Source of the DNA: Lachnospiraceae bacterium | GTDB taxonomy: Bacteria > Bacillota > Clostridia > Lachnospirales > Lachnospiraceae | Direction of reading: 5' to 3' | Assembly: GCA_017446045.1 (NCBI GenBank) | Contig: JAFSRP010000046.1 | Span: forward strand, 1 to 34,081 | Length of the DNA: 34,081 nt | Part shown: piece after piece, positions 1 through 11,793 of the stretch | Position numbering within the stretch: position 1 is the first letter of the stretch | Layout of the letters: each line of letters opens with the position of its first letter | The notes under the pieces: generated by a model | Databases searched by the model: none | Told to the model about the DNA's origin: nothing | Seen by the model: the letters and a program-made list of their open reading frames with translations, nothing else | Made by a program: the position numbers and the translations under genes

Positions 1-666
1 GTAGCCGTTCTCCCAGAATGCAAGTGCCTTGATGCCGGTGCCGTCGAAGCCTGCAAGAAGCTGCTGGCCTACTTCGCCGTCAAGTACTGCGTATGCAGAC
101 TCATAGGACGGGAACAGGTACGGAAGGTCAAGGACTGCCCAGTTAGCGGTGGACTTAGCAAATGCCGGGATCGGACCGGTGGAGGTGACCAGCATGTCCT
201 GGGTGCCCATGGAAACGGCATCCAGCATGTCGGACTCGTTGCCAAGAGAGGATGACGGATAGATATCTACGGTCATCTCGCCGCCGGAAAGCTCCTCAAG
301 GTGCTTTCTGAATGCTACAAGACCCTGGTTGTAAGCAGAGGTCATTGCGTTGGTGTCGCCGCACTTGAAGCGGATGGTTGCGTCCGGAGAACCAAGAGGC
401 TCTTCGTCGGTCGGCTCGGTAAGAACCGGAGGAAGGATCGTGTAAGCTGCTGCTGCCGGAGCTGCTGCTGCCGGAGCTGCTGCCTCAGTCTCTGCCGGTG
501 CCGCCTCGGTAGCTGCCGGAGCTGCCTCGGTAGCTGCCGGAGCTGCTGCCTCAGTCTCTGCCGGTGCTGCCGCTGCTGTCGTCTGGGTGGTGGAAGAACC
601 GCCGCCGCAGGCAACGAGAGCTGCAGTCATGACAGAAACAAGCATCAATGAAATAAATTTTTTCAT
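1..666 (-). CDS. TRAP transporter solute-binding lipoprotein (DctP type), partial
   Basis: N-terminal 222 residues of an extracytoplasmic binding protein; the reading frame is open to the window edge, so the C-terminus is missing. It starts with MKKFISLML, a hydrophobic signal and a lipobox LVAC with the lipidated Cys at residue 20. An Ala/Glu/Pro/Thr-rich tether of about 50 residues follows, then a DctP-like domain with the segments NAMTSAYNQG, SSSLGNESDML and GTQDMLVTSTGP. An AAGGGA ribosome binding site precedes the ATG. In this family the protein captures a carboxylate outside the cell and passes it to DctQM membrane subunits, which presumably lie beyond the left edge. It lies downstream of panB, 154 bases away, with its own promoter. 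The family call is firm; the ligand is unknown. Confidence 0.88.
   Translation of the reverse strand, partial: MKKFISLMLVSVMTAALVACGGGSSTTQTTAAAAPAETEAAAPAATEAAPAATEAAPAETEAAAPAAAAPAAAAYTILPPVLTEPTDEEPLGSPDATIRFKCGDTNAMTSAYNQGLVAFRKHLEELSGGEMTVDIYPSSSLGNESDMLDAVSMGTQDMLVTSTGPIPAFAKSTANWAVLDLPYLFPSYESAYAVLDGEVGQQLLAGFDGTGIKALAFWENGY
445..585 (-). repeat. 21-base coding tandem repeat in the lipoprotein tether
   Basis: Degenerate 21-base units encode seven-residue repeats of the form APAETEA or APAATEA just after the lipobox. They form the flexible, proline-rich linker between the membrane anchor and the binding domain. Perfect or near-perfect copies are adjacent, so copy number may vary between strains by slippage. 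Confidence 0.75.
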
Positions 667-705
667 AAGTTGTTCCCTTTCTTAAAAATATTATTGTTTC
701 TGCAT

Positions 706-733
706 GCCGGGGACTGCTTACCCAGCCCCCGGC
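706..733 (-). other. GC-rich hairpin at the 5' end of the TRAP binding-protein mRNA
   Basis: A perfect 7-bp stem, GCCGGGG at 706-712 against CCCCGGC at 727-733, encloses a 14-base loop. It starts about 10 bases after the predicted transcription start and has no U-tract, so it looks more like an mRNA-stabilising or processing structure than a terminator. Confidence 0.5.
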
Positions 734-750
734 AATGCCGTCCAACCATT

Positions 751-779
751 ATTATATACTTTTCACGCAGAATTGTATA
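751..779 (-). promoter_or_regulatory. Putative sigma-A promoter for the TRAP binding protein
   Basis: On the minus strand TATACA (774-779) and a perfect TATAAT (751-756) are separated by 17 bases. Transcription would start near 744, giving a leader of about 78 bases. This would let the binding protein be made in excess over the enzymes upstream. Confidence 0.55.
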
Positions 780-820
780 TCTTTTTGTGCACTATTTGTC
801 AGAAAAATGACAGAATTTCG

Positions 821-1654
821 TCAGTCGACCGGGTAACCCTCGACCTTTGCGTTGTAGCTGTACTCCGGAGTCGGGAAGGTGCCAGCGCAAGTGTCATCGT
901 AGAATGCGTTCAGCGCATCGACCATCGGCTGGCGAAGCTCTGCGTAATGCTTGACGAACTTCGGCTTGAAATCACCGAACAGTCCGGTCATATCATAAAG
1001 GTTCAGCTCCTGTCCGTCGCAGTACAGCCCGGCACCGATGCCGCAGGTCGGGATCTTGACGGTCTCGGTGATCTTCTTTGCCACGCCAACCGGCATGCAC
1101 TCAAGGCAGATACCGAATGCGCCCGCTTCTTCAACTGCAAGTGCATCAGCCAGCAGCTGGTCTGCCACGGAGCTGTCCTTGCCCTGGACCTTGAAGCCGC
1201 CAAGTGCGCTGATGGACTGCGGGGTCAGGCCGATATGTGCCATGACCGGAATGCCTGCATCAACGATCGCACGGATACGGGGAGCCATCTTTGCGCCGCC
1301 CTCGAGCTTGACGCAGTCGCAGCCGGTCTCCTGCATGATACGGTTTGCAGTCATGACAGCCTGCTCGTTGGAAGCGTTGTATGTGCCGAACGGCATATCG
1401 CCGACGACGAAGGTGTTGGGAGCGCCCTTGACGACAGCCTTTGCATGATGGCAGATCATGTCTACAGTAACCGGAATGGTGGAGCCGAAGCCGGTCATGA
1501 CATTGCCCAGAGAGTCGCCGACCAGGATCATCTCGGTCTTGGATTCATCTACGATGCCCGCGAAAGTATAGTCATAGCAGATCGTCCAGGTCCACTTCTG
1601 TCCCTCTTCCTTGTAACGCTTGAAGTCCTGAATACTGCACTTTTTCTTTGCCAT
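821..1654 (-). CDS. panB: 3-methyl-2-oxobutanoate hydroxymethyltransferase-like protein (PanB family)
   Basis: 277 residues, close to the family length of about 265. PanB transfers a one-carbon unit from methylene-tetrahydrofolate to 2-oxoisovalerate, giving ketopantoate; the reaction is reversible. The (beta/alpha)8 motifs are present: VGDSLG with metal and substrate residues D47-S48, VGDMPFG with D86, VKLEGG with K116 and E118, GLTPQS, the catalytic-type Glu in LECMPV (E185), and GIGAG. All expected active-site residues are therefore conserved. A clear GGAGG site precedes the ATG. It lies 49 bases after the panE-like gene and is followed by the TRAP gene. Neither panC nor panD is nearby, and the neighbours are a TRAP importer and a UxaA-type lyase, so a retro-aldol catabolic role is a possible alternative to pantothenate synthesis. 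Confidence 0.88.
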   Translation of the reverse strand: MAKKKCSIQDFKRYKEEGQKWTWTICYDYTFAGIVDESKTEMILVGDSLGNVMTGFGSTIPVTVDMICHHAKAVVKGAPNTFVVGDMPFGTYNASNEQAVMTANRIMQETGCDCVKLEGGAKMAPRIRAIVDAGIPVMAHIGLTPQSISALGGFKVQGKDSSVADQLLADALAVEEAGAFGICLECMPVGVAKKITETVKIPTCGIGAGLYCDGQELNLYDMTGLFGDFKPKFVKHYAELRQPMVDALNAFYDDTCAGTFPTPEYSYNAKVEGYPVD

Positions 1655-1703
1655 GGTTTCCTCCTTAATTTAAGAAATATATTTACACTTTGATGTTCCT
1701 GGG

Positions 1704-2645
1704 TCAATACATCTGATCCTCGTAATGATCCTGGATCATATTGATCAGATGGTAGATCGTGGTGTTGTAAGGTACCGGGATCCCCAGCCGCTGGCCTTCA
1801 CGGACGACAGCTCCGGTAATGGTCTCCACCTCGGTCTTCATATGTTTCTTCGCGTTCTGGTTCATCGAAGAATAATGTGTGCTCGGTGTATAGATCTCGA
1901 AGAAATGATCCCTCTCAGTCTCATAATCCAGATCCAGGCCTTTCGCGTTGGCGACTTCGCAGACCTCACGGATGAGCTCGCTTGAAAGTGCCCTGCCGTG
2001 GGGCGGCTCGCAGACCTGCCCACAGGAGAGGCGGGTGATCATGCCGATACCGCAGGTGCAGACGTTGATGCAGAGCTTCTTCCAGATCGCCTTCTCAGCC
2101 TCCGGGGTAGCCTGGGTCTCAAGGCCTGCCTCGCTCAAAGTCTCGCAGATCTTCTCGATCGCCGGGGTAACGGGGCCTTCCATCGGCATGATCTGGGTGA
2201 AACCGCTGGTGCCGGAATCTCTGACATGCGCGGGGCCTTCAACAACACCTGCCGCCAGAGTAGTTCCCAGAATGATGCGGTTCTTCGGAACATACTTGGC
2301 AATGATGTCCGCATTGCCAACGCCGTTCTGCACCGTCAGCACATAGGTGTCCGGCCCGATGATCACCTTTGCGTCGCGGGTGATCCTGTCAGTAAAGTTG
2401 GTGTTGACGAAAATGATCACGAGTTCCATGTAACCGTCCTGATCATAGACATCATGCACGTTGGTGGTCGCCCTGACCTTAAGGACCTGAGTCCCTTCTC
2501 TTGTGTCGAGCGTCAGGCCATCCTTCTGCATCTTAGCCACATGCTCACGCCAGGTATCCACCAGCCAAACATCATTTCCCGCAGCTGCCAGTCTGGCACC
2601 GACCATGCCACCCATGGCACCTGCGCCCATCATTGTAACTTTCAT
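1704..2645 (-). CDS. panE: 2-dehydropantoate 2-reductase-like dehydrogenase (ApbA/PanE family)
   Basis: 313 residues with the start taken at MKVTMMGAG, because AGAGGAG lies just upstream of that ATG; an earlier in-frame start at 2678 lacks such a site. The N-terminal Rossmann motif GAGAMGG (7-13) binds NADP(H). QNGVGN carries the family Asn (N107), WKKLCIN the catalytic Lys (189 or 190), and TEVETITGAVVREG the C-terminal Glu region that contacts the hydroxy acid. The family interconverts 2-keto and 2-hydroxy acids such as ketopantoate and (R)-pantoate. It is the first gene of a leftward transcript with panB. Both enzymes act on a 3-hydroxymethyl-2-keto acid in the classical pathway, but the surroundings suggest the true substrate could differ. 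Expected to be cytosolic. Confidence 0.85.
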   Translation of the reverse strand: MKVTMMGAGAMGGMVGARLAAAGNDVWLVDTWREHVAKMQKDGLTLDTREGTQVLKVRATTNVHDVYDQDGYMELVIIFVNTNFTDRITRDAKVIIGPDTYVLTVQNGVGNADIIAKYVPKNRIILGTTLAAGVVEGPAHVRDSGTSGFTQIMPMEGPVTPAIEKICETLSEAGLETQATPEAEKAIWKKLCINVCTCGIGMITRLSCGQVCEPPHGRALSSELIREVCEVANAKGLDLDYETERDHFFEIYTPSTHYSSMNQNAKKHMKTEVETITGAVVREGQRLGIPVPYNTTIYHLINMIQDHYEDQMY

Positions 2646-2686
2646 AGTTTCTCCTCTTGAAAAACCAATCAAAAACAAGGAACGGG

Positions 2687-2705
2687 TGTGCTACATTACA
2701 GCACA
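2687..2705. promoter_or_regulatory. Candidate operator TGTGC-N9-GCACA, copy A
   Basis: A perfect dyad with a nine-base spacer centred about 30 bases downstream of the predicted panE start of transcription. The same dyad with the same spacer occurs at 4746-4764 before the cupin gene. Its position would suit repression, and the divergent IclR-type protein is the nearest candidate ligand-responsive regulator. That assignment is inference. Confidence 0.6.
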
Positions 2706-2732
2706 GCATTTCCTAATATAGTACTTTTATAG

Positions 2733-2759
2733 ATTATCAGTATATTCCTGCAATTTCAA
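2733..2759 (-). promoter_or_regulatory. Putative promoter A for panE-panB
   Basis: On the minus strand TTGAAA (2754-2759) and GATAAT (2733-2738) are separated by 15 bases, shorter than optimal, with a TG just before the -10. The element AGATTATCAGT at 2731-2741 is identical in promoter B at 4791-4801. The short spacer suggests dependence on an activator. Confidence 0.55.
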
Positions 2760-2771
2760 CACAAAATACTG

Positions 2772-2801
2772 CCCAAAAAAGAGGTTGGAAATTTGTTGAA
2801 A
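2772..2801. promoter_or_regulatory. Conserved upstream boxes of promoter A
   Basis: Two elements, CCCAAAAAAG (2772-2781) and ATTTGTTGAAA (2791-2801), lie about 45-75 bases upstream of the predicted start. Both recur, 19 bases apart start to start, at 4831-4860. They could be activator sites, or an A-tract UP-like element plus an activator site. Confidence 0.55.
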
Positions 2802-2847
2802 ATGCGTCCGGGAATCTGAAGCGCTGTTCGCTGTACTGCAGCTTGCC

Positions 2848-4020
2848 TTACACGTAATTACAGGTCCTCATGACTGCGATCTCGTTGATGCCGAGGGCTT
2901 CCGACTTGGTCTGCCGTCCGTTGCAGGTGTCGACAACCATATCATACAGTTCCTGCTGCAGCTCTTCTATACTGTGCGTTCCCTTTATGTACCGGCTGGC
3001 ATCGAAATCGATGTTGTCTTCCATCTTTGCGTATGTGGATGCGTTGCCGGTGATCTTGATGACCGGCATGATCGGATTGCCCAGGGCTGTGCCGCGGCCG
3101 GTGGAGAATACGCAGACCTGTGCGCCGCCTGCTGCCATACCTGTCATGGAGCTCGGATCATTGCCCGGAGTGTCCATGATCACGAGGCCTTTCTGCTCCG
3201 CGGGGATCTCCTTTGCGTAGTCATATACCTGGCTGATCGGCCTGCTGCCTCCCCTATGGATACATCCGAGAGACTTCTCCTCGAGGGTCGTGATGCCGCC
3301 CGCCTTATTGCCCGGGGTCGGGTTGCCGCTGCGGATATCCTCTCCGCAGGCTCTGCGGACTGCCTCCTCATAGCGATGAACGATCTCAAGGACGCGGTCG
3401 TGTACTTCCGGCGTGACACCGCGCTCTGCCAGCAGATGCTCACCGCCGATGAACTCGGGTGTCTCGGAAAGGATCGTTGCAGCGCCTTCATCCACCAGAC
3501 GGTCGGACAGCGCGCCGATCACATTGTTGGCCGCCAAACCGGATGTCGGATCGGAACCGCCGCACTCGGTCGCAAGCAGAAGCTCTGTGATCGGGAACTT
3601 CTCTTTACGCATCATGGCAGCCTCTGCCGCAAACTGCTTTGCATAGCGCACGCCCTGCTCGACTGCCCGGAGAGTGCCGCCGGCTTCCTGGATGATCACT
3701 TTCTCGACCGGTTTGGTGGTCCGTTTCGCGATCCTGTCTGCCACTTCGTCACACTGGCAACCCTCGCAGCCGAGCGAGACCAGGACTACAGCGTATACAT
3801 TGGGATTGGCCGCAAAACCGACCTCGAAATCAAAACTCATCTCCAGATCGGAGGTTACCTGGGAACATCCCACCTGGTTGTGGAAGCTGACTGCTCCCTC
3901 GACCTGGTTCGCGATGATGTTCGCGACATCCGACGCGCAGACGCTCGTGGGAAGAACAAGTACATAGTTTCTGATGCCCGGCCTGCCGTCGGGGCGCCTG
4001 TATCCGTAAAATTCAGTCAT
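2848..4020 (-). CDS. UxaA-family lyase, large catalytic subunit (altronate dehydratase / sulfolactate sulfo-lyase beta-like)
   Basis: 390 residues. The opening FYGYRRPDGRPGIRNYVLVLP is the hallmark start of the UxaA/GarD/SuyB family. Further family features are VSLGCEGC, LLATECGGSD, GNKAGG followed by TTLEEKSLGC, and MDTPGNDP. These enzymes use a metal or Fe-S centre to eliminate water, or sulfite in SuyAB, from hydroxy acids. The protein lacks an N-terminal SAF domain. That domain is supplied by the separate gene just upstream, only three bases away, so the two form one enzyme, the arrangement known for sulfolactate sulfo-lyase. Altronate dehydratase itself is usually a single fused chain near 495 residues. 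The GGGGA ribosome binding site lies in the end of the SAF gene. Substrate cannot be read from the sequence. Confidence 0.87.
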   Translation of the reverse strand: MTEFYGYRRPDGRPGIRNYVLVLPTSVCASDVANIIANQVEGAVSFHNQVGCSQVTSDLEMSFDFEVGFAANPNVYAVVLVSLGCEGCQCDEVADRIAKRTTKPVEKVIIQEAGGTLRAVEQGVRYAKQFAAEAAMMRKEKFPITELLLATECGGSDPTSGLAANNVIGALSDRLVDEGAATILSETPEFIGGEHLLAERGVTPEVHDRVLEIVHRYEEAVRRACGEDIRSGNPTPGNKAGGITTLEEKSLGCIHRGGSRPISQVYDYAKEIPAEQKGLVIMDTPGNDPSSMTGMAAGGAQVCVFSTGRGTALGNPIMPVIKITGNASTYAKMEDNIDFDASRYIKGTHSIEELQQELYDMVVDTCNGRQTKSEALGINEIAVMRTCNYV

Positions 4021-4023
4021 TTC

Positions 4024-4299
4024 TTATCCCCTTTCCGGCTCTTCGATATTGTGTGTATGGACATGCTGTCCCGGAACGATATCCTGGGACGCGATCCCGA
4101 TCAGCTCGCCGTACTTGATGACGCGGCCGCCCTTCGGCACTGCCTTGACAGCCATCTTATGATATACGGGGATCGCATCCAGGGCGGTTACCTCACACGT
4201 GACTCCGCCGTCCGTATACTGTACCGTATCGCCCGGCTGCACAGCGCCGCCCAGGGTGACCACGCAGTCCTTCGGGTCAATAAACATTCCATTTACCAT
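4024..4299 (-). CDS. SAF-domain small subunit of the UxaA-family lyase
   Basis: 91 residues, essentially one SAF domain: a start with DPKDCVVTL, a central small beta fold, IKYGELIGIA, and the terminal signature VHTHN in GQHVHTHNIEE. This matches the N-terminal domain of altronate and galactarate dehydratases and SuyA, the small subunit of sulfolactate sulfo-lyase. It is cytosolic and expected to pair with the large subunit encoded three bases downstream. A GAAGGAG site sits before the ATG. It lies 56 bases after the cupin gene in the same leftward transcript. Confidence 0.85.
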   Translation of the reverse strand: MVNGMFIDPKDCVVTLGGAVQPGDTVQYTDGGVTCEVTALDAIPVYHKMAVKAVPKGGRVIKYGELIGIASQDIVPGQHVHTHNIEEPERG

Positions 4300-4355
4300 A
4301 TATAATGATCTCCTTCTTCTTTAATATGCTCCTTCATGGGCTGCCAGGACAGCTT

Positions 4356-4709
4356 TTATTTGAACAGGATCAGCGCGATAATCTCGGCTGTCTCGTCCGT
4401 ATCATTCATGAAACCGTGAGACTCCCCGTCTGCGCAGAAGGTAATGTCACCGGCATTGATGCGTACCTTCTCATCGTCGCGGTAATAAATACCGCTTCCT
4501 TTAATAAGGTAGTAAGTCTCCGCTTCGCCCTCATGCTTGTGGAGCCCGATCTCGCAGCCGGGCTCAATGATCGTATGCTGGAAGACACGGCCTTTCTCGT
4601 ACATTTCCTCCCGCCCGTTCAGGATCGGCTTAGCCAGGATATACCCCGCTCCGCCTCTCATGTGCTCTGTCCTGACCGGCTCATCTGTGATTTTTCTGAT
4701 AAATGACAT
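4356..4709 (-). CDS. Small single-domain cupin protein
   Basis: 117 residues forming one cupin barrel. Motif 1 is visible as GLHKHEGEAETYYLIKG, giving two His and one Glu ligand. Motif 2, around GDITFCADGESHGFMN, supplies a further His. Such proteins bind a divalent metal and can act as isomerases, epimerases or lyases on sugar acids and keto acids, or as small-ligand sensors. It is the first gene of the transcript that encodes the UxaA-type lyase, so a step just before or after that lyase is likely. An AGGAG site lies 11 bases before the ATG. The exact reaction is unknown. Confidence 0.82.
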   Translation of the reverse strand: MSFIRKITDEPVRTEHMRGGAGYILAKPILNGREEMYEKGRVFQHTIIEPGCEIGLHKHEGEAETYYLIKGSGIYYRDDEKVRINAGDITFCADGESHGFMNDTDETAEIIALILFK

Positions 4710-4745
4710 GGAAAATCGACGCTCCTTTCCTTAATTTAACGACAA

Positions 4746-4764
4746 TGTGCGGTATTGAAGCACA
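4746..4764. promoter_or_regulatory. Candidate operator TGTGC-N9-GCACA, copy B
   Basis: Perfect dyad identical in arms and spacer length to that at 2687-2705. It is placed about 31 bases downstream of the predicted start of the cupin transcript. Only the arms and spacer length are conserved, which is typical of a dimeric regulator site. Confidence 0.6.
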
Positions 4765-4792
4765 TAGTACACGACTATAGAATATAGTTCAG

Positions 4793-4819
4793 ATTATCAG
4801 TCCATGCGGCATAAATCAA
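4793..4819 (-). promoter_or_regulatory. Putative promoter B for cupin-SAF-lyase
   Basis: On the minus strand TTGATT (4814-4819) and GATAAT (4793-4798) are 15 bases apart, the same geometry as promoter A. AGATTATCAGT is shared exactly with promoter A. Predicted start of transcription is near 4786. Confidence 0.55.
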
Positions 4820-4830
4820 TATCCATAATG

Positions 4831-4860
4831 TCCAAAAAAGCTTAATGCTATTTGTTGAAA
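4831..4860. promoter_or_regulatory. Conserved upstream boxes of promoter B
   Basis: TCCAAAAAAG (4831-4840) and ATTTGTTGAAA (4850-4860), with the same spacing as the pair at 2772-2801. They also lie about 45-70 bases upstream of the divergent IclR gene's promoter, so a protein bound here could control both directions. Confidence 0.55.
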
Positions 4861-4903
4861 TTCCTAATTTTTCGTCTGTCAATGCCGGAAACCGGAATCA
4901 GTC

Positions 4904-4933
4904 TTGCTTTTCGGGGCCCCGCAATGCTACAAT
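4904..4933 (+). promoter_or_regulatory. Putative promoter of the IclR-family regulator
   Basis: TTGCTT (4904-4909), 18 bases, then TACAAT (4928-4933). The spacer holds the palindrome GGGGCCCC. Transcription would start near 4940, about 48 bases before the chosen start codon. Confidence 0.45.
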
Positions 4934-4987
4934 GTGGGAAAGTGTTCGTCATTATCATCTTGTTTGATCGATGAAAGCTGTGGTTTT

Positions 4988-5722
4988 ATGATACAGTCTA
5001 TCGAAAGAGTATCCAATATATTGCATTGTTTTGACCAGGATTCCCTTCTGGGGATCACACAGATCGCCAAAAGAGTAGGCCTTTCCAAGTCCACCACGTT
5101 CGGGATCGTCAGTACGCTGACAAAGCTGGGATTTTTAGAACAGGATAAGGACACAGGTCTCTATAAGCTCGGCCTGGAGCTCTTCCTGCTTGGAAACCGT
5201 GTCGATGCCGAAGGCCGCAACACGATCACCCGTGAACTGGACGTGCTGGTGGAAACGCTGGGAGAGACCATCAACTACGTCCGCCGCCAGGGCAGCAATG
5301 TGATCTATCTGGCCAAAAAGGAAAGCCCGCACTCCATGCGTATCTCCACAACGGTCGGCATGAGCCTGCCCATGTACTGCTCCGCGGTGGGCAAAGCCAT
5401 ACTGGCATATCTGCCGCAGGATGAACAGGATGCCATCATCAACGTAACAGAATTCCAGAACCTCACTGACAATACACTTGCCAGCGCGGAGACCCTGCGA
5501 TCCGAGCTCAAGAAGATCCGTTCCCAGGGCTATGCGCTTGACAGTGAAGAGCTGGAATACGGTCTGACCTGTGTCGCTGTGCCTATCCTGAACATCCAGG
5601 GATATCCGGTCGCTGCGATCAGCTGCTCCGGACCTTCGACCCGCATGACCCCGGAGAAGATCGCGGTCTGCCAGAACGAGCTCCGCCAGAGTGCAGCGCG
5701 CCTTTCCCGTCTGATCAGCTGA
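4988..5722 (+). CDS. IclR-family transcriptional regulator
   Basis: 244 residues from MIQSIERV, the usual family start. An upstream in-frame ATG at 4904 would overlap the predicted promoter and adds a non-family extension. The N-terminal winged helix-turn-helix reads LGITQIAKRVGLSKSTTFG (residues about 21-39). The C-terminal IclR effector domain includes GETINYVRRQG, VGMSLPMYCSAVGKAILAYL and the late segment LTCVAVPILNIQGYPVAAIS. IclR proteins bind DNA as dimers or tetramers and respond to small carboxylates. It is divergent from the cupin-lyase transcript and upstream of the crotonase-PFOR genes, so it is the best candidate regulator of the island. Ligand and sign of control are not visible. 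Confidence 0.9.
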   Translation: MIQSIERVSNILHCFDQDSLLGITQIAKRVGLSKSTTFGIVSTLTKLGFLEQDKDTGLYKLGLELFLLGNRVDAEGRNTITRELDVLVETLGETINYVRRQGSNVIYLAKKESPHSMRISTTVGMSLPMYCSAVGKAILAYLPQDEQDAIINVTEFQNLTDNTLASAETLRSELKKIRSQGYALDSEELEYGLTCVAVPILNIQGYPVAAISCSGPSTRMTPEKIAVCQNELRQSAARLSRLIS

Positions 5723-5927: not shown

Positions 5928-6701
5928 ATGTACGAGCATCTTCTGTACGAAGTCGCGGATGGCATTGCCACCATCAGCATCAACAACCCCAAATCCCTCA
6001 ACGCTTTGGACCCTGCCACCATTGAAGAGTTTGGCGCATGCATCGATGAAGTCGCTAAAGACAAGGCTGTCAAGGCCCTGATCGTGACCGGTGCAGGTCC
6101 CAAGTCCTTTGTCGCGGGTGCGGATATCTCCAAGATGGTCCTGATGTCAGCGGAGGAGGGTGCTCGCTTTGCGGCTCTCGCAGACGGATTCTTCTCCAAA
6201 CTCGAAGCTCTCCCGATCGTAACGATCGCGGCGGTCAACGGTTATGCACTCGGCGGCGGCTGCGAGCTTGCCATGGCCTGCGATATCCGCATCGCTTCCG
6301 AAAACGCTATCTTCGGCCAGCCTGAAGTCGGCCTCGGCATCATTCCGGGCTTTGGCGGCACCCAGCGTCTGGCGCGCCTGATCGGCAAGGGAAGGGCGAA
6401 AGAACTCATTCTCACCACAGACCGTATCGACGCGAATGAAGCGTACCGCATCGGCCTGGTCAACAAAGTCACTTCCAAGGAGGAACTGATCGATACCTGT
6501 AAGGCAATGATCGGCAGAGTCCTGAAGAACGGTCCGTTTGCTGTTGCGGTCGCAAAGAGCTGCATTGAAAGCGGTATGGATATGGACCTCAAGAACGGTC
6601 TGAAACTGGAAGCGGATGCTTTCGGCCTTACTTTCGCTACCGAAGAGAAGAAAGAAGGCATGACCGCGTTCCTCGAAAAGCGCAAGGCTAATTTCGGCTG
6701 A
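5928..6701 (+). CDS. Enoyl-CoA hydratase / crotonase family protein
   Basis: 257 residues, the standard crotonase length. FVAGADISKM supplies the CoA-binding and oxyanion segment, GYALGGGCELAMACD holds the first catalytic Glu (E113), and FGQPEVGLGIIPGFGGTQRL the second (E133). Having both glutamates argues for true hydration of a 2-enoyl-CoA, for example crotonyl-CoA, rather than a decarboxylase or isomerase variant. An AAGGAGG site lies before the ATG. PFOR follows after 59 bases. No thiolase, 3-hydroxyacyl-CoA dehydrogenase or acyl-CoA dehydrogenase is adjacent, so this is not the usual butyrate operon. Its substrate may be an acyl-CoA of the island's pathway. Confidence 0.9.
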   Translation: MYEHLLYEVADGIATISINNPKSLNALDPATIEEFGACIDEVAKDKAVKALIVTGAGPKSFVAGADISKMVLMSAEEGARFAALADGFFSKLEALPIVTIAAVNGYALGGGCELAMACDIRIASENAIFGQPEVGLGIIPGFGGTQRLARLIGKGRAKELILTTDRIDANEAYRIGLVNKVTSKEELIDTCKAMIGRVLKNGPFAVAVAKSCIESGMDMDLKNGLKLEADAFGLTFATEEKKEGMTAFLEKRKANFG

Positions 6702-6760: not shown

Positions 6761-9700
6761 ATGAGCACATTCCAGAAAGTAACAGTCGACGGCAACACCG
6801 CCGCCGCAATGGCTTCCTACGCATTTACGGAAGTCGCAACCATCTATCCCATCACTCCCTCCTCCGTCATGGCTGAAATGATGGATGAGTGGGCTGCCAA
6901 CGGTAAAAAGAACATTTTCGGTGAGAAGGTAGAGATCCGTGAGATGCAGCATGAAGGCGGCGCAGCCGGTGCACTGCACGGCGCGCTCCAGGGCGGTGCG
7001 CTCGGTTCTACCTACACTGCCAGCCAGGGCCTGATGCTGATGCTTCCGAATATGCACAAGATCGCCGGCGAACTTCTTCCCGGTGTCTTCCATGTCAGCG
7101 CCCGCGCGCTTGCATCCAACGCACTTTCCATCTACGGCGACCATCAGGACGTCATGAACTGCCGTGCGACCGGTTTCACGATGCTCTGCGGCAGCACCGT
7201 TCAGCAGGCTTTCCACATGGCAGCGATCGCACATCTTTCCGCGATCAAGAGCCATATCCCGGTCCTGCATTTCTTCGACGGCTTCCGTACCAGCCATGAA
7301 TATCAGAAGATCGAAGCTATCGATTATGATACCCTGGCTTCCCTGGTGGACCGTGACGCGCTCAAGGCATTCCGTGACAACGCGCTGAATTCCGACCATC
7401 CGAAGTCACGCGGTTCTGCGGAGAGCCCGGACGTCTTCTTCCAGGCACGTGAGTCGACCAACAAGTACTATCTGGCAGTCCCGGCTGTCATCGAAGAGTA
7501 CATGGCCAAGATCAATGAGATCGCCGGCACCGACTACAAGCTGTTCAATTATTTCGGCGCACCGGATGCCGAGCACATCATCATCACCATGGGATCCTCC
7601 GCAGGTGTTATCCGCGAAGCACTGGATTACTGGAATGCGAAGGGCAAGAAGCTCGGCGTTGTCGAGGTCCATCTCTATCGTCCGTTCTGCAATGACAAGC
7701 TTCTCGAGGCGATCCCGGCAACCGTTAAGAAGATCGCGGTCCTTGACCGTACCAAGGAACCGGGCGCACCCGGCGAGCCTCTGTACCTGGATGTCTGCAA
7801 CGCACTGTTTGGTGCCGGCAGAAGCGATATCAAGGTCGTCGGCGGCAGATACGGCCTCGGCTCCAAGGACTTCACCCCGATGGATGCCATGGCAGTCTTC
7901 CAGAACCTGGATCAGGACGAGCCGAAGAACAACTTCACCGTTTCCATCGTGGATGACGTGACCAATACCTCTCTTCCGGACTTCGCTGAGCCATTTGACT
8001 CCACGCCGGACGGCAACTTCTCCTGTAAGTTCTGGGGTCTCGGTTCCGACGGTACCGTCGGTGCAAACAAGTCCGCCGTCAAGATCATCGGCGACAACAC
8101 CGACTACAAGGTGCAGGCATACTTTGCTTATGACGCAAAGAAGTCCGGCGGCGTCACCATTTCCCATCTGCGTTTCGGCCCGAAGGAGATCAAGGGTTCC
8201 TACCAGATCAAGGCAGCCAATTTCATCGCCTGCCACAACCAGGCATATGTCGACAAGTATCCGCTGATCGACGACCTCAAGGAAGGCGGCGACTTCCTGC
8301 TCAACACCATCTGGAACGATGAGGAGCTCGAGCAGAACCTGCCGGCAGAGCTGAAGCGCAAGATCGCATCCAAGAAAGCGAAGTTCTATACCCTGGATGC
8401 TTTCCACATCGCAAAAGACCTCGGCCTCGGCAGCCGTATCAACATGATCATGCAGGCCGGCTTCTTCGCCATCACCAAGATCCTTCCGGTGGATGACGCC
8501 GTGAAGTATCTGAAGGAGCAGGTCGTCAAGACCTACGGCGCAAAGGGCCAGGATATCATCGACATGAACTTCTCAGCGATCGACGCCGGCATCAGCCACA
8601 TCCATGAAGTGGCGGTTCCGGACAGCTGGAAGGACGCTGCAGATGATAAGGCAGACGACAAGAAGGATATTCCGGAGTTCTTCAGGAAAGTCCTGTTCAA
8701 GATGGGCCGCCAGGAAGGCAACGATCTTCCGGTCAGCGCTTTCAACGGCCATGAAGACGGCAGCTGGGAGCAGGGTTATACCCAGTATGAGAAACGCGGT
8801 ATCGCGATCGAAGTTCCCGCATGGGATGTTGAGAAGTGTATCCAGTGTAACCGCTGCGCGGCTATGTGCCCGCACGCTGTCATCCGTCCGATCCTTCTTA
8901 CCGAAGCAGAAGCTGCGGCAGCTCCCGAAGGTTACGCTGTCAAGAAAGCAAACGGCTACGACGGCCTCCAGTATCACCTCGCGATCTCCGGTCTCGACTG
9001 TACCGGATGCGGCGTATGTATCAAGGCCTGCCCGGTCGGCTGCCTGAAGATGACTGAACTGGCTCCGATGCGCGAATCCAACAGCGCAGAGTGGGAGTAC
9101 TCCATCAAGAAGGTCAGCGACAAGGAGATCAAGGCGACCAACACTGTCAAGGGCAGCCAGTTCCTGAAGCCCTACATCGAGTTCTCCGGCGCCTGCGCAG
9201 GCTGCGGCGAGACTCCGTATATCAAGATGATCACCCAGCTGTACGGCGACCATATGCGTATCGCGAACTCCGCGGGCTGTACCCACATCTGGGGCGGCTC
9301 ACCCGAGATCCCGTTCTGCACGAATGAGAAGGGCCAGGGCGTCGCATGGGCCAGCGGCCTGTTCGAAGATACCGCAGAGTACGGCTACGGCATGTACCTT
9401 GGTTCCAGTGCTGTCAGAAAGTGGCTGAAGTCCAGAGTCGAAGAGCTGGAGGGTCAGACCTCCGATGATGCTGTCAAGGCAGCAGCTGCAGAATGGCTCG
9501 AAGGATTCGATGCCGGCGACGGCACACGCGCACGCTCCGATAAGCTGATCGCGGCTCTCGAAGCAGCTCCGGCGACAGAGCTTGGCAAGAGCATCCTTGA
9601 GCGCAAAGATTACCTGCCCAAGACATCCCAGTGGATCGTCGGCGGCGACGGATGGGCTTACGATATCGGCTACAGCGGACTTGATCATGTCATCGCTTCC

Positions 9701-10279
9701 GGCGAGAACGTCAACATCATCTGCGTCGATACCGAAGTTTATTCCAACACCGGCGGACAGTCCTCCAAGGCTACCCAGACCGCAGCAGTCGCACAGTTCG
9801 CGGCAGCCGGCAAGAAGACCAAGAAGAAGGATCTGGGACGTATGTGCATGAGCTATGGCTACGTCTACGTCGCACAGGTCGCGATGGGCTATGACCCGCA
9901 GCAGACTCTCAATGCGATCCGCGAGGCTGAAAGCTATGACGGTCCGTCCGTCATCATCGCTTACGCTCCCTGCGTCAACCACGGCATCAAGGGCGGCATG
10001 AGCAATGCACAGAACCGTATCAAGGAAGCTGTCGAGTGCGGCTACTGGCATGCATGGCGCTATGATCCGCGCCGTAAGGAGGAAGGAAAGAATCCGTTCG
10101 TCCTCGACTCCAAGCCGCCGACAGCAAGCTTCCGCGATTTCCTGATGAAGGAAGTCCGTTATTCCTCCCTGCAGCGTAAGTTCCCGGATATCGCGAAGGA
10201 GCTCTTCGCGAAGGCCGAGAAGGATGCCGCGGACCGTACCGAAGCATACATCAAGCTGAACGAAGGCACGATGGTATAA
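6761..10279 (+). CDS. nifJ: Pyruvate:ferredoxin (flavodoxin) oxidoreductase, single-chain
   Basis: 1172 residues, full length for the homodimeric clostridial/Desulfovibrio type. It oxidatively decarboxylates pyruvate with CoA to acetyl-CoA, CO2 and reduced ferredoxin. The N-terminal pyruvate-binding domain starts with AYAFTEVATIYPITPSS. Two 4Fe-4S motifs follow, with cysteines 693/696/699/703 and 747/750/753/757. The proximal cluster ligands are C812, C815, C840 and C1071, the same numbers as in the Desulfovibrio africanus enzyme. The thiamine diphosphate motif is GGDGWAYDIG with VDTEVYSNTGGQ. AGAGGG precedes the ATG. It sits between the crotonase and the LarA-like gene, so it may drain keto acids from the island; pyruvate is the expected substrate but other 2-oxoacids are not excluded. 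Confidence 0.96.
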   Translation: MSTFQKVTVDGNTAAAMASYAFTEVATIYPITPSSVMAEMMDEWAANGKKNIFGEKVEIREMQHEGGAAGALHGALQGGALGSTYTASQGLMLMLPNMHKIAGELLPGVFHVSARALASNALSIYGDHQDVMNCRATGFTMLCGSTVQQAFHMAAIAHLSAIKSHIPVLHFFDGFRTSHEYQKIEAIDYDTLASLVDRDALKAFRDNALNSDHPKSRGSAESPDVFFQARESTNKYYLAVPAVIEEYMAKINEIAGTDYKLFNYFGAPDAEHIIITMGSSAGVIREALDYWNAKGKKLGVVEVHLYRPFCNDKLLEAIPATVKKIAVLDRTKEPGAPGEPLYLDVCNALFGAGRSDIKVVGGRYGLGSKDFTPMDAMAVFQNLDQDEPKNNFTVSIVDDVTNTSLPDFAEPFDSTPDGNFSCKFWGLGSDGTVGANKSAVKIIGDNTDYKVQAYFAYDAKKSGGVTISHLRFGPKEIKGSYQIKAANFIACHNQAYVDKYPLIDDLKEGGDFLLNTIWNDEELEQNLPAELKRKIASKKAKFYTLDAFHIAKDLGLGSRINMIMQAGFFAITKILPVDDAVKYLKEQVVKTYGAKGQDIIDMNFSAIDAGISHIHEVAVPDSWKDAADDKADDKKDIPEFFRKVLFKMGRQEGNDLPVSAFNGHEDGSWEQGYTQYEKRGIAIEVPAWDVEKCIQCNRCAAMCPHAVIRPILLTEAEAAAAPEGYAVKKANGYDGLQYHLAISGLDCTGCGVCIKACPVGCLKMTELAPMRESNSAEWEYSIKKVSDKEIKATNTVKGSQFLKPYIEFSGACAGCGETPYIKMITQLYGDHMRIANSAGCTHIWGGSPEIPFCTNEKGQGVAWASGLFEDTAEYGYGMYLGSSAVRKWLKSRVEELEGQTSDDAVKAAAAEWLEGFDAGDGTRARSDKLIAALEAAPATELGKSILERKDYLPKTSQWIVGGDGWAYDIGYSGLDHVIASGENVNIICVDTEVYSNTGGQSSKATQTAAVAQFAAAGKKTKKKDLGRMCMSYGYVYVAQVAMGYDPQQTLNAIREAESYDGPSVIIAYAPCVNHGIKGGMSNAQNRIKEAVECGYWHAWRYDPRRKEEGKNPFVLDSKPPTASFRDFLMKEVRYSSLQRKFPDIAKELFAKAEKDAADRTEAYIKLNEGTMV

Positions 10280-10389: not shown

Positions 10390-11700
10390 ATGACATTTAT
10401 TGATTTTCCTGATATTTCATTTCCTGTGCAGGGTATCGAAGATGTACCGATGCCAAAGATGTACAGGATCCGGGAACTGTATGAAAATGACAAGATCGAC
10501 GACATCAAATCCCATCTGATCAACGAGATGGAAAATGTTGCCCTGGACCGTGAATGGATCAAAGGCAAGTCCATTGCCATTACGGTAGGAAGCCGCGGCA
10601 TTCCGGACAACGCGCTGATGGTGCGCACGATCTGCGATACCCTGAAAAAATGGGGCGCGAATCCCTTTATCGTTCCCGCAATGGGAAGCCACGGCGGAGG
10701 AACTGTCGAGGGAAACCTTGAGATCATCAACGGCTACGGTGTCACGGAAGAAGCCATGGGCGTTCCGATCAAGGCAAGCATGGAAGTCGTGAAGATCGGC
10801 GAGATCCCGGACAAGGTCCATACCCCGGTCTACTGCGACAAGAATGCCGCGGAAGCGGACGGTATCATCCTCTACAATAAGGTCAAACCGCATACCGATT
10901 TCAAGGGTTATGTGGAGTCCGGTATGTGCAAGATGATGGCGATCGGATTGGCCAAGCATTACGGCTGCTCCTGGTTCCACCAGCAGGGCTTCGACACCTT
11001 CGGCGAGCGCGTGCCGCTGGTCGCGAAGGAGTTCCTGTCCAAGATGCCGGTGATCATGGGCATCGCGGTCGTACAGAACGCTTACGACGATATTTCCGAG
11101 ATCCGAGCGTTTGCCCACGACGATATTTTCGAGGGCGACCATGAGATGCTGCAGATCGCGAAGCGCCGTCTGCCGAGAATGAAATTCGACAATATCGACG
11201 TCCTGGTGATCGACCGCATCGGCAAGAATATCAGCGGTGAAGGCGCTGACCCGAATGTCACCGGCCGCGGCTTCATGCCGGGCTTTGAGGATGATTTCCA
11301 CTGCAAAAAGCTCTTCATCCGCGGACTGACCGAGCAGAGCCATCACAACGCCTGCGGCTTAGGCCTCGCTGATATTACGACACAGCGATGCCTGAACAGC
11401 TGTGACTGGGCAAGCACCTGGATCAACCTGACCACCAACACATGCGTGCATGGCGGAAGGATCCCGGTCTACCAGAACAACGATTTCCTGGCTTTGCGTC
11501 TTGCGATCCGTACCTGTGCCCGTGCCGATTTCCTGAATCCGAGAGTGGCGCGTATCCGCGATACCCTGACCCTCAACGAGCTGGAAGTCTCCGAGGCGAT
11601 CCTTCCCGATATCAAGGACAGGGACGACGTTGAGATCCTCTCCGGTCCGTTCGTCTACCAGTTCGACAAGGATGGCTACATGGAGGACTTCAAATTGTAA
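10390..11700 (+). CDS. Lactate-racemase-domain protein (LarA/DUF2088-like)
   Basis: 436 residues. The N-terminal half has the LarA-like nucleotide fold: AITVGSRGI, then the glycine-rich MGSHGGGTVEGN, then NKVKPHTDFKGYVESG followed by KMMAIGLAKH. These correspond in position to the LarA regions that bind the nickel-pincer nucleotide and catalytic histidines. The spacing differs from lactate racemase, so it belongs to a divergent homologue group that may racemise or epimerise another 2-hydroxy acid. The cofactor genes larB, larC and larE are not in this window. A TAAGGAG site precedes the ATG. It closes the rightward series crotonase-PFOR-LarA-like and ends at a strong terminator. Family call good, reaction unknown. 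Confidence 0.8.
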   Translation: MTFIDFPDISFPVQGIEDVPMPKMYRIRELYENDKIDDIKSHLINEMENVALDREWIKGKSIAITVGSRGIPDNALMVRTICDTLKKWGANPFIVPAMGSHGGGTVEGNLEIINGYGVTEEAMGVPIKASMEVVKIGEIPDKVHTPVYCDKNAAEADGIILYNKVKPHTDFKGYVESGMCKMMAIGLAKHYGCSWFHQQGFDTFGERVPLVAKEFLSKMPVIMGIAVVQNAYDDISEIRAFAHDDIFEGDHEMLQIAKRRLPRMKFDNIDVLVIDRIGKNISGEGADPNVTGRGFMPGFEDDFHCKKLFIRGLTEQSHHNACGLGLADITTQRCLNSCDWASTWINLTTNTCVHGGRIPVYQNNDFLALRLAIRTCARADFLNPRVARIRDTLTLNELEVSEAILPDIKDRDDVEILSGPFVYQFDKDGYMEDFKL

Positions 11701-11762: not shown

Positions 11763-11793
11763 AAAAGGCTGCCGATCAGCGGCAGCCTTTTTT
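11763..11793. terminator. Bidirectional intrinsic terminator
   Basis: Stem AAAAGGCTGCCG (11763-11774) pairs with CGGCAGCC plus a T6 run (11780-11793) around the loop ATCAG. A-rich on one side and T-rich on the other, it can end both the LarA-like gene and the convergent comFC. Confidence 0.9.

Follow-up and report, generated by a model that had tools for sequence, protein, structure and literature searches.

Results

Homologues of PanB and PanE in a two-stranded gene island

The DNA analysed here (the window) is an entire contig, C21, of 34,081 bases from the draft genome of a Lachnospiraceae bacterium (2.26 Mb, 63 contigs, 78.88% complete), and its left part carries a gene island that includes homologues of PanB and PanE, the families that make ketopantoate and pantoate in pantothenate synthesis. 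Comparison with relatives suggests that this PanB would now work backwards, splitting an acid used as food and passing a one-carbon unit to folate. The original prediction, made from the first 5,722 bases, had named a TRAP transporter substrate-binding protein, PanB, PanE, a two-subunit lyase, a cupin and an IclR regulator, and curated models recover each of them in its place (Table 1). On the minus strand the cupin is followed by the small and large lyase subunits, PanE, PanB and the TRAP binding protein, with gaps of 56, 3, 202, 49 and 154 bases; the binding protein is the TRAP component seen, and the contig stops inside it. On the plus strand IclR is followed by an enoyl-CoA hydratase, pyruvate:ferredoxin oxidoreductase (PFOR) and a nickel-pincer isomerase, up to a terminator-like stem. 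The island reaches 11.7 kb, beyond the limit of 5,722 first drawn for it.

Table 1. Genes and features of the island, with the models and scores behind each assignment
Feature	Position	Strand	Evidence
TRAP transporter substrate-binding protein (DctP), 3' end cut by contig end	1..666	-	Pfam DctP 97.8 bits
PanB homologue, proposed retro-hydroxymethyltransferase	821..1654	-	TIGR00222; panC-free set; changed positions 25, 216, 218
PanE/ApbA-family dehydrogenase, pantoate-type residue set incomplete	1704..2645	-	TIGR00745; NKNCCHSE vs NKNNNNSE
UxaA/GD_AH-type lyase (dehydratase), large subunit	2848..4020	-	Pfam GD_AH_second 128 bits, GD_AH_C 311.2 bits
Lyase small subunit, SAF domain	4024..4299	-	Pfam SAF 30.2 bits, cut-off 21
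Small Cupin_2 protein	4356..4709	-	Pfam Cupin_2 57.9 bits
IclR-family regulator, divergent from catabolic genes	4988..5722	+	Pfam IclR_C + HTH_IclR
Short-chain enoyl-CoA hydratase	5928..6701	+	Pfam ECH_1 238 bits
PFOR	6761..10279	+	Pfam POR_N, POR, EKR, PFOR_II
Nickel-pincer cofactor-dependent isomerase, group 22 (LarA-like)	10390..11700	+	NF052515 483.6 bits, cut-off 400
Terminator-like stem-loop after plus-strand genes	11763..11791	+	12-pair stem, T-rich tail; consensus match, not proof

PanB belongs to a lineage without panC and panD

The window PanB passes TIGR00222 (299.6 bits, cut-off 207.55) and Pantoate_transf (346.7 bits), and it is identical to the E. coli enzyme at all seven active-site positions compared (D45, S46, D84, K112, E114, H136 and E181). 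Family, length and these seven positions are thus common to the known PanB; the window protein differs in its missing panC/panD partner, its separate place in the tree and its residues I25, E216 and N218.

A PanB match occurs in 60 of 196 genomes of the order and 77 of 299 of the family. We collected 79 PanB loci from named genomes, drawn from the best 80 matches and chosen by similarity to window-type PanBs, and labelled 152 PanBs by their neighbours; 63 had panC or panD within 3 kb, many of these loci having only about 1.5 kb of flank. In a FastTree tree of 148 rows (the 152 minus 6 repeats, plus the window and E. coli), the window PanB falls in a set of 62 rows (support 98) with no panC/panD-adjacent member: 20 are PanE-linked, 10 folate-linked, 4 dehydratase-linked, 4 hydrolase-linked and 2 TRAP-linked, 21 are of other kinds and one is the window itself. 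With the 37 unlabelled rows left out, the tree needs two changes between the panC-linked and catabolic labels. IQ-TREE, run on 102 rows (17 panC-linked kept), gave a set of 44 rows (support 96), again with no panC-linked member, and in both trees the window PanB pairs with that of locus L115 (support 98-100). The phylogeny proposed in the original prediction therefore sets the window PanB apart from the panC-linked enzymes.

E. coli positions 23, 25, 202, 212 and 214 read TYI(V/I)V in 63/63 panC-linked rows and TYIVV in 24 of 25 PanE-linked and all 11 folate-linked rows; the window reads IYIEN and L115 VYIEN. Window I25, E216 and N218 correspond to positions 23, 212 and 214, of which the last two are polar here and hydrophobic in all 63 biosynthetic rows; these two presumably form part of the pocket that takes the two methyl groups. 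Dehydratase-linked PanBs read TYCNN (L155), TYVNN (first PanB of L156) and VYTCN (L176). Asparagine at 214 occurs in 6 of the 148 rows (window, L115, L139, L155, L156, L176), namely in 4 of the 6 with a dehydratase gene nearby versus 2 of the 142 others (p 1e-5, for positions picked after a screen); two dehydratase-linked PanBs lack it, those of L144 (TYIDV) and the second of L156 (TYIVV). At L155 (8315-9978), the IlvD-type dehydratase before PanB reads as two separate pieces.

PanE has lost part of the pantoate-type residue set

The window PanE has the ApbA and ApbA_C domains and passes TIGR00745 (223.4 bits, cut-off 141.35). We compared eight E. coli positions, chosen on structural grounds. 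N98, K176, N180, S244 and E256 are kept, and N184, N194 and N241 are replaced by C198, C208 and H257, so that both domains and the active-site Lys, Glu and Ser are shared with known PanE, which differs at 184, 194 and 241. The claim of intact catalytic residues accordingly stands in full for PanB and in part for PanE. NKNNNNSE, as in E. coli, is found in all 30 PanEs near a PanB (one of them, L179, at a panC-linked locus) and in none of 22 background rows (20 distinct); the window reads NKNCCHSE, and the PanE linked to a lyase in L287 reads NKNNIYSE. The best phmmer match is 3wfi, a D-mandelate dehydrogenase that was deposited as a 2-dehydropantoate 2-reductase.

Since both window enzymes lost residues kept by their pantoate-type homologues, pantoate itself is an unlikely substrate, and a polar acid is probably used instead. 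The original prediction half expected this, holding a related acid likelier than pantoate.

Pantothenate genes elsewhere in the genome

Among the Pfam-scanned genes of the window there is no panC or panD, as had been stated. A PF02569 profile search of the whole genome returned no PanC either, an absence that is not final at 78.88% completeness; that search covered PanC, and PanD was not searched for. The search for a second pan set that had been suggested did turn up a second PanB, on contig C49 (L003:12109-12960), 44% identical to that of the window and alone among unrelated genes; in the IQ-TREE tree it groups with the second PanB of L156 (support 97, but long branches meet). Further PanE-type proteins are encoded on C23 and, as a fragment, on C2. 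The C23 protein keeps all eight pantoate-type residues and shares 90% identity with the PanE of L135, which lies near a PanB and a three-subunit 2-oxoacid:ferredoxin oxidoreductase. The genome also encodes formate-tetrahydrofolate ligase (FTHFS) and LarC, which is needed for the nickel-pincer nucleotide cofactor.

Relatives place PanB beside importers, hydrolases and folate genes

Neighbour statistics were drawn from 97 PanBs in 94 wide-flank loci (5 repeat loci dropped), 14 of them panC/panD-adjacent and 83 not; the p values are uncorrected for relatedness and multiple tests. Transporters (22/83 versus 0/14), hydrolases (22/83 versus 0/14) and IclR/GntR regulators (21/83 versus 0/14) each accompany the panC-free PanBs (p 0.035 in every case), and a dehydratase lies near 5/83 versus 0/14 (p 1.0). 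Of the 29 panC-free PanBs with a PanE within 6 kb, 18 have an M20, Amidohydro_3 or S58 hydrolase nearby, 10 an IclR, 9 an SSF/DUF997 protein, 7 a TRAP gene and 6 folate one-carbon genes. The window TRAP binding protein is 35-45% identical, over 112-134 residues, to the binding proteins of 10 PanB loci, and its IclR shares 34-39% identity with the IclR proteins found at PanB loci (14 rows shown). These neighbours, together with the panC/panD-free set, favour the catabolic reading of the original prediction, in which the direction of PanB is deduced. That prediction had an imported 2-hydroxy acid oxidised by PanE and then cleaved by PanB; the link to one-carbon units and folate is supported by gene neighbours in some relatives, whereas the order of the two steps does not emerge from the data.

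Two SSF proteins, in L122 and L167, pass the PanF model TIGR02119 (552 and 559 bits, cut-off 328). The order in L167 (1268-9710) is DUF997, PanF, M20 peptidase, class III aminotransferase, PanB, PanE and IclR, and with L122 (8239-17285), L134 (5201-11860) and L117 (3014-13300), which likewise combine a PanF-type symporter with PanB and PanE or hydrolases, it forms a group of candidate pantothenate-degrading clusters. Folate genes join in elsewhere: L150 has in a row FTHFS, FolD, a formate transporter, IclR, PanB and PanE, and L172 has FTHFS, FTCD, FolD, a FocA-type protein (so called because it clusters with the L150 protein), IclR, PanB, PanE, an M20 peptidase and subunits of a 2-oxoacid:ferredoxin oxidoreductase. 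The simplest reading of these relatives is that pantothenate would be taken up and hydrolysed to pantoate and beta-alanine, pantoate oxidised by PanE, and PanB run in reverse, yielding formate, ATP and isobutyryl-CoA. The M20, Amidohydro_3 and S58 proteins are then candidate pantothenases. Pantothenate degradation is known to proceed by pantothenase and pantoate dehydrogenase; the relatives' clusters would share this start, from pantothenate and pantoate, and differ in running PanE and PanB in reverse. The window PanB belongs to the same panC-free set as these clusters, whereas its PanE lacks their pantoate-type residues.

A second type of locus is found in six genomes of family f17, all with FTHFS within 6 kb of PanB (L048-L051, L053, L055). 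Besides FolD, they carry genes of the FTCD and FolT families, and most of them also have a kinase of DUF1537 type; in L049 (5048-18270), FolD, FTCD_C and a FolT-family protein follow PanB and FTHFS. Several also carry genes for a 4-hydroxy-2-oxovalerate aldolase, an acylating acetaldehyde dehydrogenase, a tartronate semialdehyde reductase-type protein and the DUF1537-type kinase. L047 (5847-14539) is of another make: PanB stands with two pyridoxal phosphate enzymes (a class I/II aminotransferase and one of Cys/Met type), LysR, a TRAP transporter and a class V aminotransferase, and may be fed by an amino acid such as homoserine. This PanB is nearly identical to that of L044 in the same genome.

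The lyase and the nickel-pincer isomerase

SuyAB is a two-subunit form within the UxaA/galactarate dehydratase family, and the window lyase has this form, with GD_AH_second and GD_AH_C domains and a separate SAF subunit. It aligns to the galactarate dehydratase 6u7l; it falls far below the galactarate dehydratase cut-off (189.7 bits versus 730.85). The large subunit is 86% identical to a protein of genome G500 and 62-63% identical to proteins of G074, G167 and G111, genomes not among the PanB matches. The small subunit adjoins the large one in L278, L284, L286, L287 and others. In L201, L203 and L204, homologues of the isomerase (74-78% identity) are separated from the lyase by 17-60 bases, and a nickel-pincer isomerase also stands by the lyase in L278. 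In the bacterium's own genome, contig C20 (L245:7031-9862) holds a second cassette of small and large lyase subunits with a group 22 isomerase and no PanB.

The neighbours of the lyase bear on its product. In L194 and L195 a DHDPS-family aldolase lies between lyase and isomerase, a sign that the lyase makes a 2-oxo-3-deoxy acid. In L284 the neighbours of the lyase are a KdgT-type permease, a dehydrogenase of PdxA type and a kinase that scores best against the D-threonate kinase model, though below its cut-off (267.6 versus 450).

At E 1e-60 or better, the lyase has a match in 22 of 38 genomes with window-type PanBs, and physical links between PanB and lyase were found in the window, in L156 and in G046, where the lyase adjoins the IclR of a folate-type cluster about 10 kb away from PanB; in L287, PanE directly precedes the lyase pair. 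L156 runs GntR, IlvD-type dehydratase, PanB, small and large lyase subunits, three TRAP genes, LarA-type racemase, second PanB and second dehydratase. The neighbourhood comparison called for in the original prediction thus yields one relative in which PanB is accompanied by a UxaA-type lyase of two subunits and by all parts of a TRAP transporter. A sole panB in a genome with panC, and relatives with neither transporter nor lyase, would have counted against that prediction; what we find is a second panB, no panC and L156.

The window isomerase exceeds the cut-off of the group 22 model, whose name gives no substrate, and the wording 'group 22' is absent from the main texts of PMC11770544 and PMC12611868. 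The L156 LarA-type protein passes the LarAH10 model, a different group. In PMC11770544, a LarAH10 enzyme isomerised 2,4-dihydroxybutyrate, 4-deoxy-threonate/erythronate and, best of all, D-gluconate/D-mannonate. Tandem PanB pairs lie about 9 kb from a group 22 isomerase in L040 (8336-11055) and L145 (8979-10800).

Discussion

A proposed tetrahydrofolate-dependent cleavage of a polar acid

The genes, their order and families, the place of PanB in the tree, its residue changes and the partner genes of relatives are the observations from which we infer a direction, a substrate and a role for each step. We give an even chance to the proposal that the island serves the inducible breakdown of a small polar 2-hydroxy acid, such as a tetronate, with PanB acting in reverse. 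Here the PanB and PanE families would be in catabolic use, a dehydratase route replacing pantoate. The TRAP transporter would import the acid, and the nickel-pincer isomerase, as a C2 epimerase partnering the lyase, would set the C2 configuration. The lyase would dehydrate a 2,3-dihydroxy acid to a 2-oxo-3-deoxy acid with C4 as CH2OH, and PanB, opposite to its biosynthetic sense, would move this CH2OH to tetrahydrofolate (THF) with no free formaldehyde released. From a tetronate (threonate or erythronate), the lyase would give 4-hydroxy-2-oxobutanoate, and PanB pyruvate and 5,10-methylene-THF; PFOR would be a fitting sink for the pyruvate, and the FTHFS of the genome could convert the one-carbon unit to formate with a gain of ATP. 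Dehydration of a 2,3-dihydroxy acid by the lyase gives a 2-oxo acid directly, so the main route can do without PanE, which may serve as a side entry or exit at this acid (2,4-dihydroxybutyrate to and from 4-hydroxy-2-oxobutanoate). A reversal of PanB is mentioned in PMC7073904.

The presence of PanB would itself narrow the substrate. That THF is needed only for a leaving carbon at the formaldehyde level follows from PanB chemistry, and we extend it, conditionally, to C4 acids. Where the leaving aldehyde has two or more carbons, a DHDPS-type aldolase should suffice, as in L194; PanB would be called for only with a single CH2OH on C3, so that tetronates or C3-hydroxymethyl-branched acids remain. 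Tetronates are our best guess: all their stereoisomers give the same achiral 4-hydroxy-2-oxobutanoate, which would explain an epimerase beside the lyase, and in L284 a related lyase stands with KdgT-type, PdxA-type and D-threonate-kinase-like genes. Of the substrates in the original prediction, pantoate is made unlikely by the residue losses and a hydroxymethyl-branched acid such as apionate is possible, the linear tetronate being simpler.

Tetronate catabolism is known via DUF1537 kinases with PdxA2 or OtnC. The kinase and PdxA-type gene by the related lyase in L284 recall that route, from which the island differs in having no such kinase among its scanned genes; its cleavage would proceed without phosphorylation, the carbon going to THF. 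A further proposal, less likely than not, is a non-phosphorylative tetronate/apionate pathway (nickel-pincer epimerase, UxaA-type lyase and THF-dependent PanB as aldolase, with pyruvate and methylene-THF as products) derived from a wider, unnamed anaerobic pantothenate-degrading pathway with reversed PanE and PanB and ATP from formyl-THF. All the parts are known families; their arrangement and proposed direction are not in the literature that we found, and a search of open-licence literature returned nothing on PanB in catabolism or on breakdown by reversed PanE and PanB.

Several findings weigh against PanB in reverse on a polar acid: (i) The closest relative of the lyase (86%, in L278, on a 4070-base contig) has an isomerase and no PanB; with the PanB-free cassette on C20, this means that the lyase can work without PanB. 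(ii) No recognised pathway gene lies near the closest PanB (L115, 76%), and a lyase search at E 1e-60 gave no match in that 1.3 Mb genome. (iii) The rows with asparagine at 214 (window 218) represent two lineages, the positions were picked after a screen, and L139, which is PanE-linked with a full PanE residue set, has this asparagine too. (iv) In the neighbour statistics PanE is borderline (29/83 panC-free versus 1/14, p 0.057), and folate genes are not significantly commoner (13/83 versus 1/14, p 0.68). (v) One-carbon support in the bacterium's own genome consists of FTHFS, the folate gene searched for there. (vi) PanE and the cupin have no assured role, and in the PanE tree the window protein is a long, unplaced branch, on which we build no claim. 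(vii) IlvD beside PanB can be biosynthetic.

Alternative explanations

A hydroxymethyl-branched acid such as apionate is an unlikely substrate, though the one that fares best among the alternatives. The lyase would give 3,3-bis(hydroxymethyl)pyruvate, from which PanBs would remove one or two CH2OH groups as methylene-THF; two different PanBs do occur in one gene run in L156 and in L176 (where one is a 79-residue fragment at a contig end), and the C49 PanB groups with the second of L156, on the long branches noted above. The C49 gene stands alone, however, the sole apiose-type model match seen is weak (OiaK on the L284 kinase, 28.7 bits, cut-off 700), and the linear tetronate route takes fewer steps and assumptions.

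Catabolism of pantoate or pantothenate, in which PanE would oxidise pantoate, PanB would split ketopantoate to ketoisovalerate and methylene-THF, and the lyase would serve some other compound, is distinctly unlikely. It would suit the company of the window PanB, whose tree neighbours stand with PanE, PanF or TRAP and commonly form a PanB-PanE pair. Against this, the window PanE lacks three of the eight residues kept in all 30 PanB-adjacent PanEs, the window PanB lacks the hydrophobic pair kept by 24/25 PanE-linked rows, no M20, Amidohydro_3 or S58 hydrolase is among the scanned island genes, and pantoate has no hydrogen on C3 for a dehydration.

We find it quite improbable that PanB runs forward, hydroxymethylating pyruvate or another 2-oxo acid with methylene-THF, with PanE reducing the product in an anabolic or overflow reaction. 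The reactions are reversible, and an IlvD next to PanB, as in some relatives, may belong to an anabolic route; catabolism is nevertheless indicated by TRAP, IclR, lyase and isomerase, and some relatives carry FTHFS, FolD and a formate transporter as well. No more probable is the adjacency of two unrelated units, a PanB-PanE remnant and a lyase-isomerase cassette. Such cassettes do exist without PanB, in other genomes and in this one, but here all genes from cupin to PanB share a strand with gaps of a few to some two hundred bases, L156 joins PanB, lyase and TRAP, L287 joins PanE and lyase, and the dehydratase-linked PanBs show the same polar change.

An ordinary supply of pantoate for coenzyme A, suggested by the names of the PanB and PanE families, is hardly credible with panC not found by PF02569 in the 78.88% of the genome at hand, a PanB in the panC-free tree set apart from panC-linked rows, and a same-genus genome, G308 (97% complete), that has no PanB match, and we rejected an ordinary panBC on the first two grounds.

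Implications

Given a large PanB set without panC and panD, accompanied by importers, hydrolases and folate genes, 'pantothenate biosynthesis' may be a mistaken label in many annotations of anaerobes, with consequences for the prediction of vitamin B5 auxotrophy. The clusters in relatives also supply candidate genes for pantothenase, a protein called unknown in PMC10393543. Should the tetronate variant proposed for the window be true, a sugar acid would yield a one-carbon unit directly on THF, PanB would gain a new role as an aldolase, and group 22 of the nickel-pincer isomerases would have its first substrate lead.

Genomic setting of the island

From about 11.8 kb to 34,081, the scanned genes are housekeeping genes (RecD2, MreB, phosphoglucomutase, polyA polymerase, ProRS and others). 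The region at 12.7-22.5 kb matches a single stretch of G308 (C6:27465-38336) at 66-76% identity, so that the contig belongs to this genus. A binning error had been considered, since the nearest PanBs belong to other families of the order, and was rejected on this match. The left part of the window, with PanB, has no match on that G308 contig, and the PanB island sits at the edge of the conserved block; it may have been gained by transfer here or lost in G308.

A promoter scan of the window found 11 candidates versus 7.5 expected, little above chance. The window scan gave no convincing candidate for an IclR operator, the one palindrome of note (74%) lying at 4899-4934. Past its lipoprotein-like start, the TRAP binding protein continues with a repetitive linker of Ala/Pro/Glu/Thr (window 400-620).

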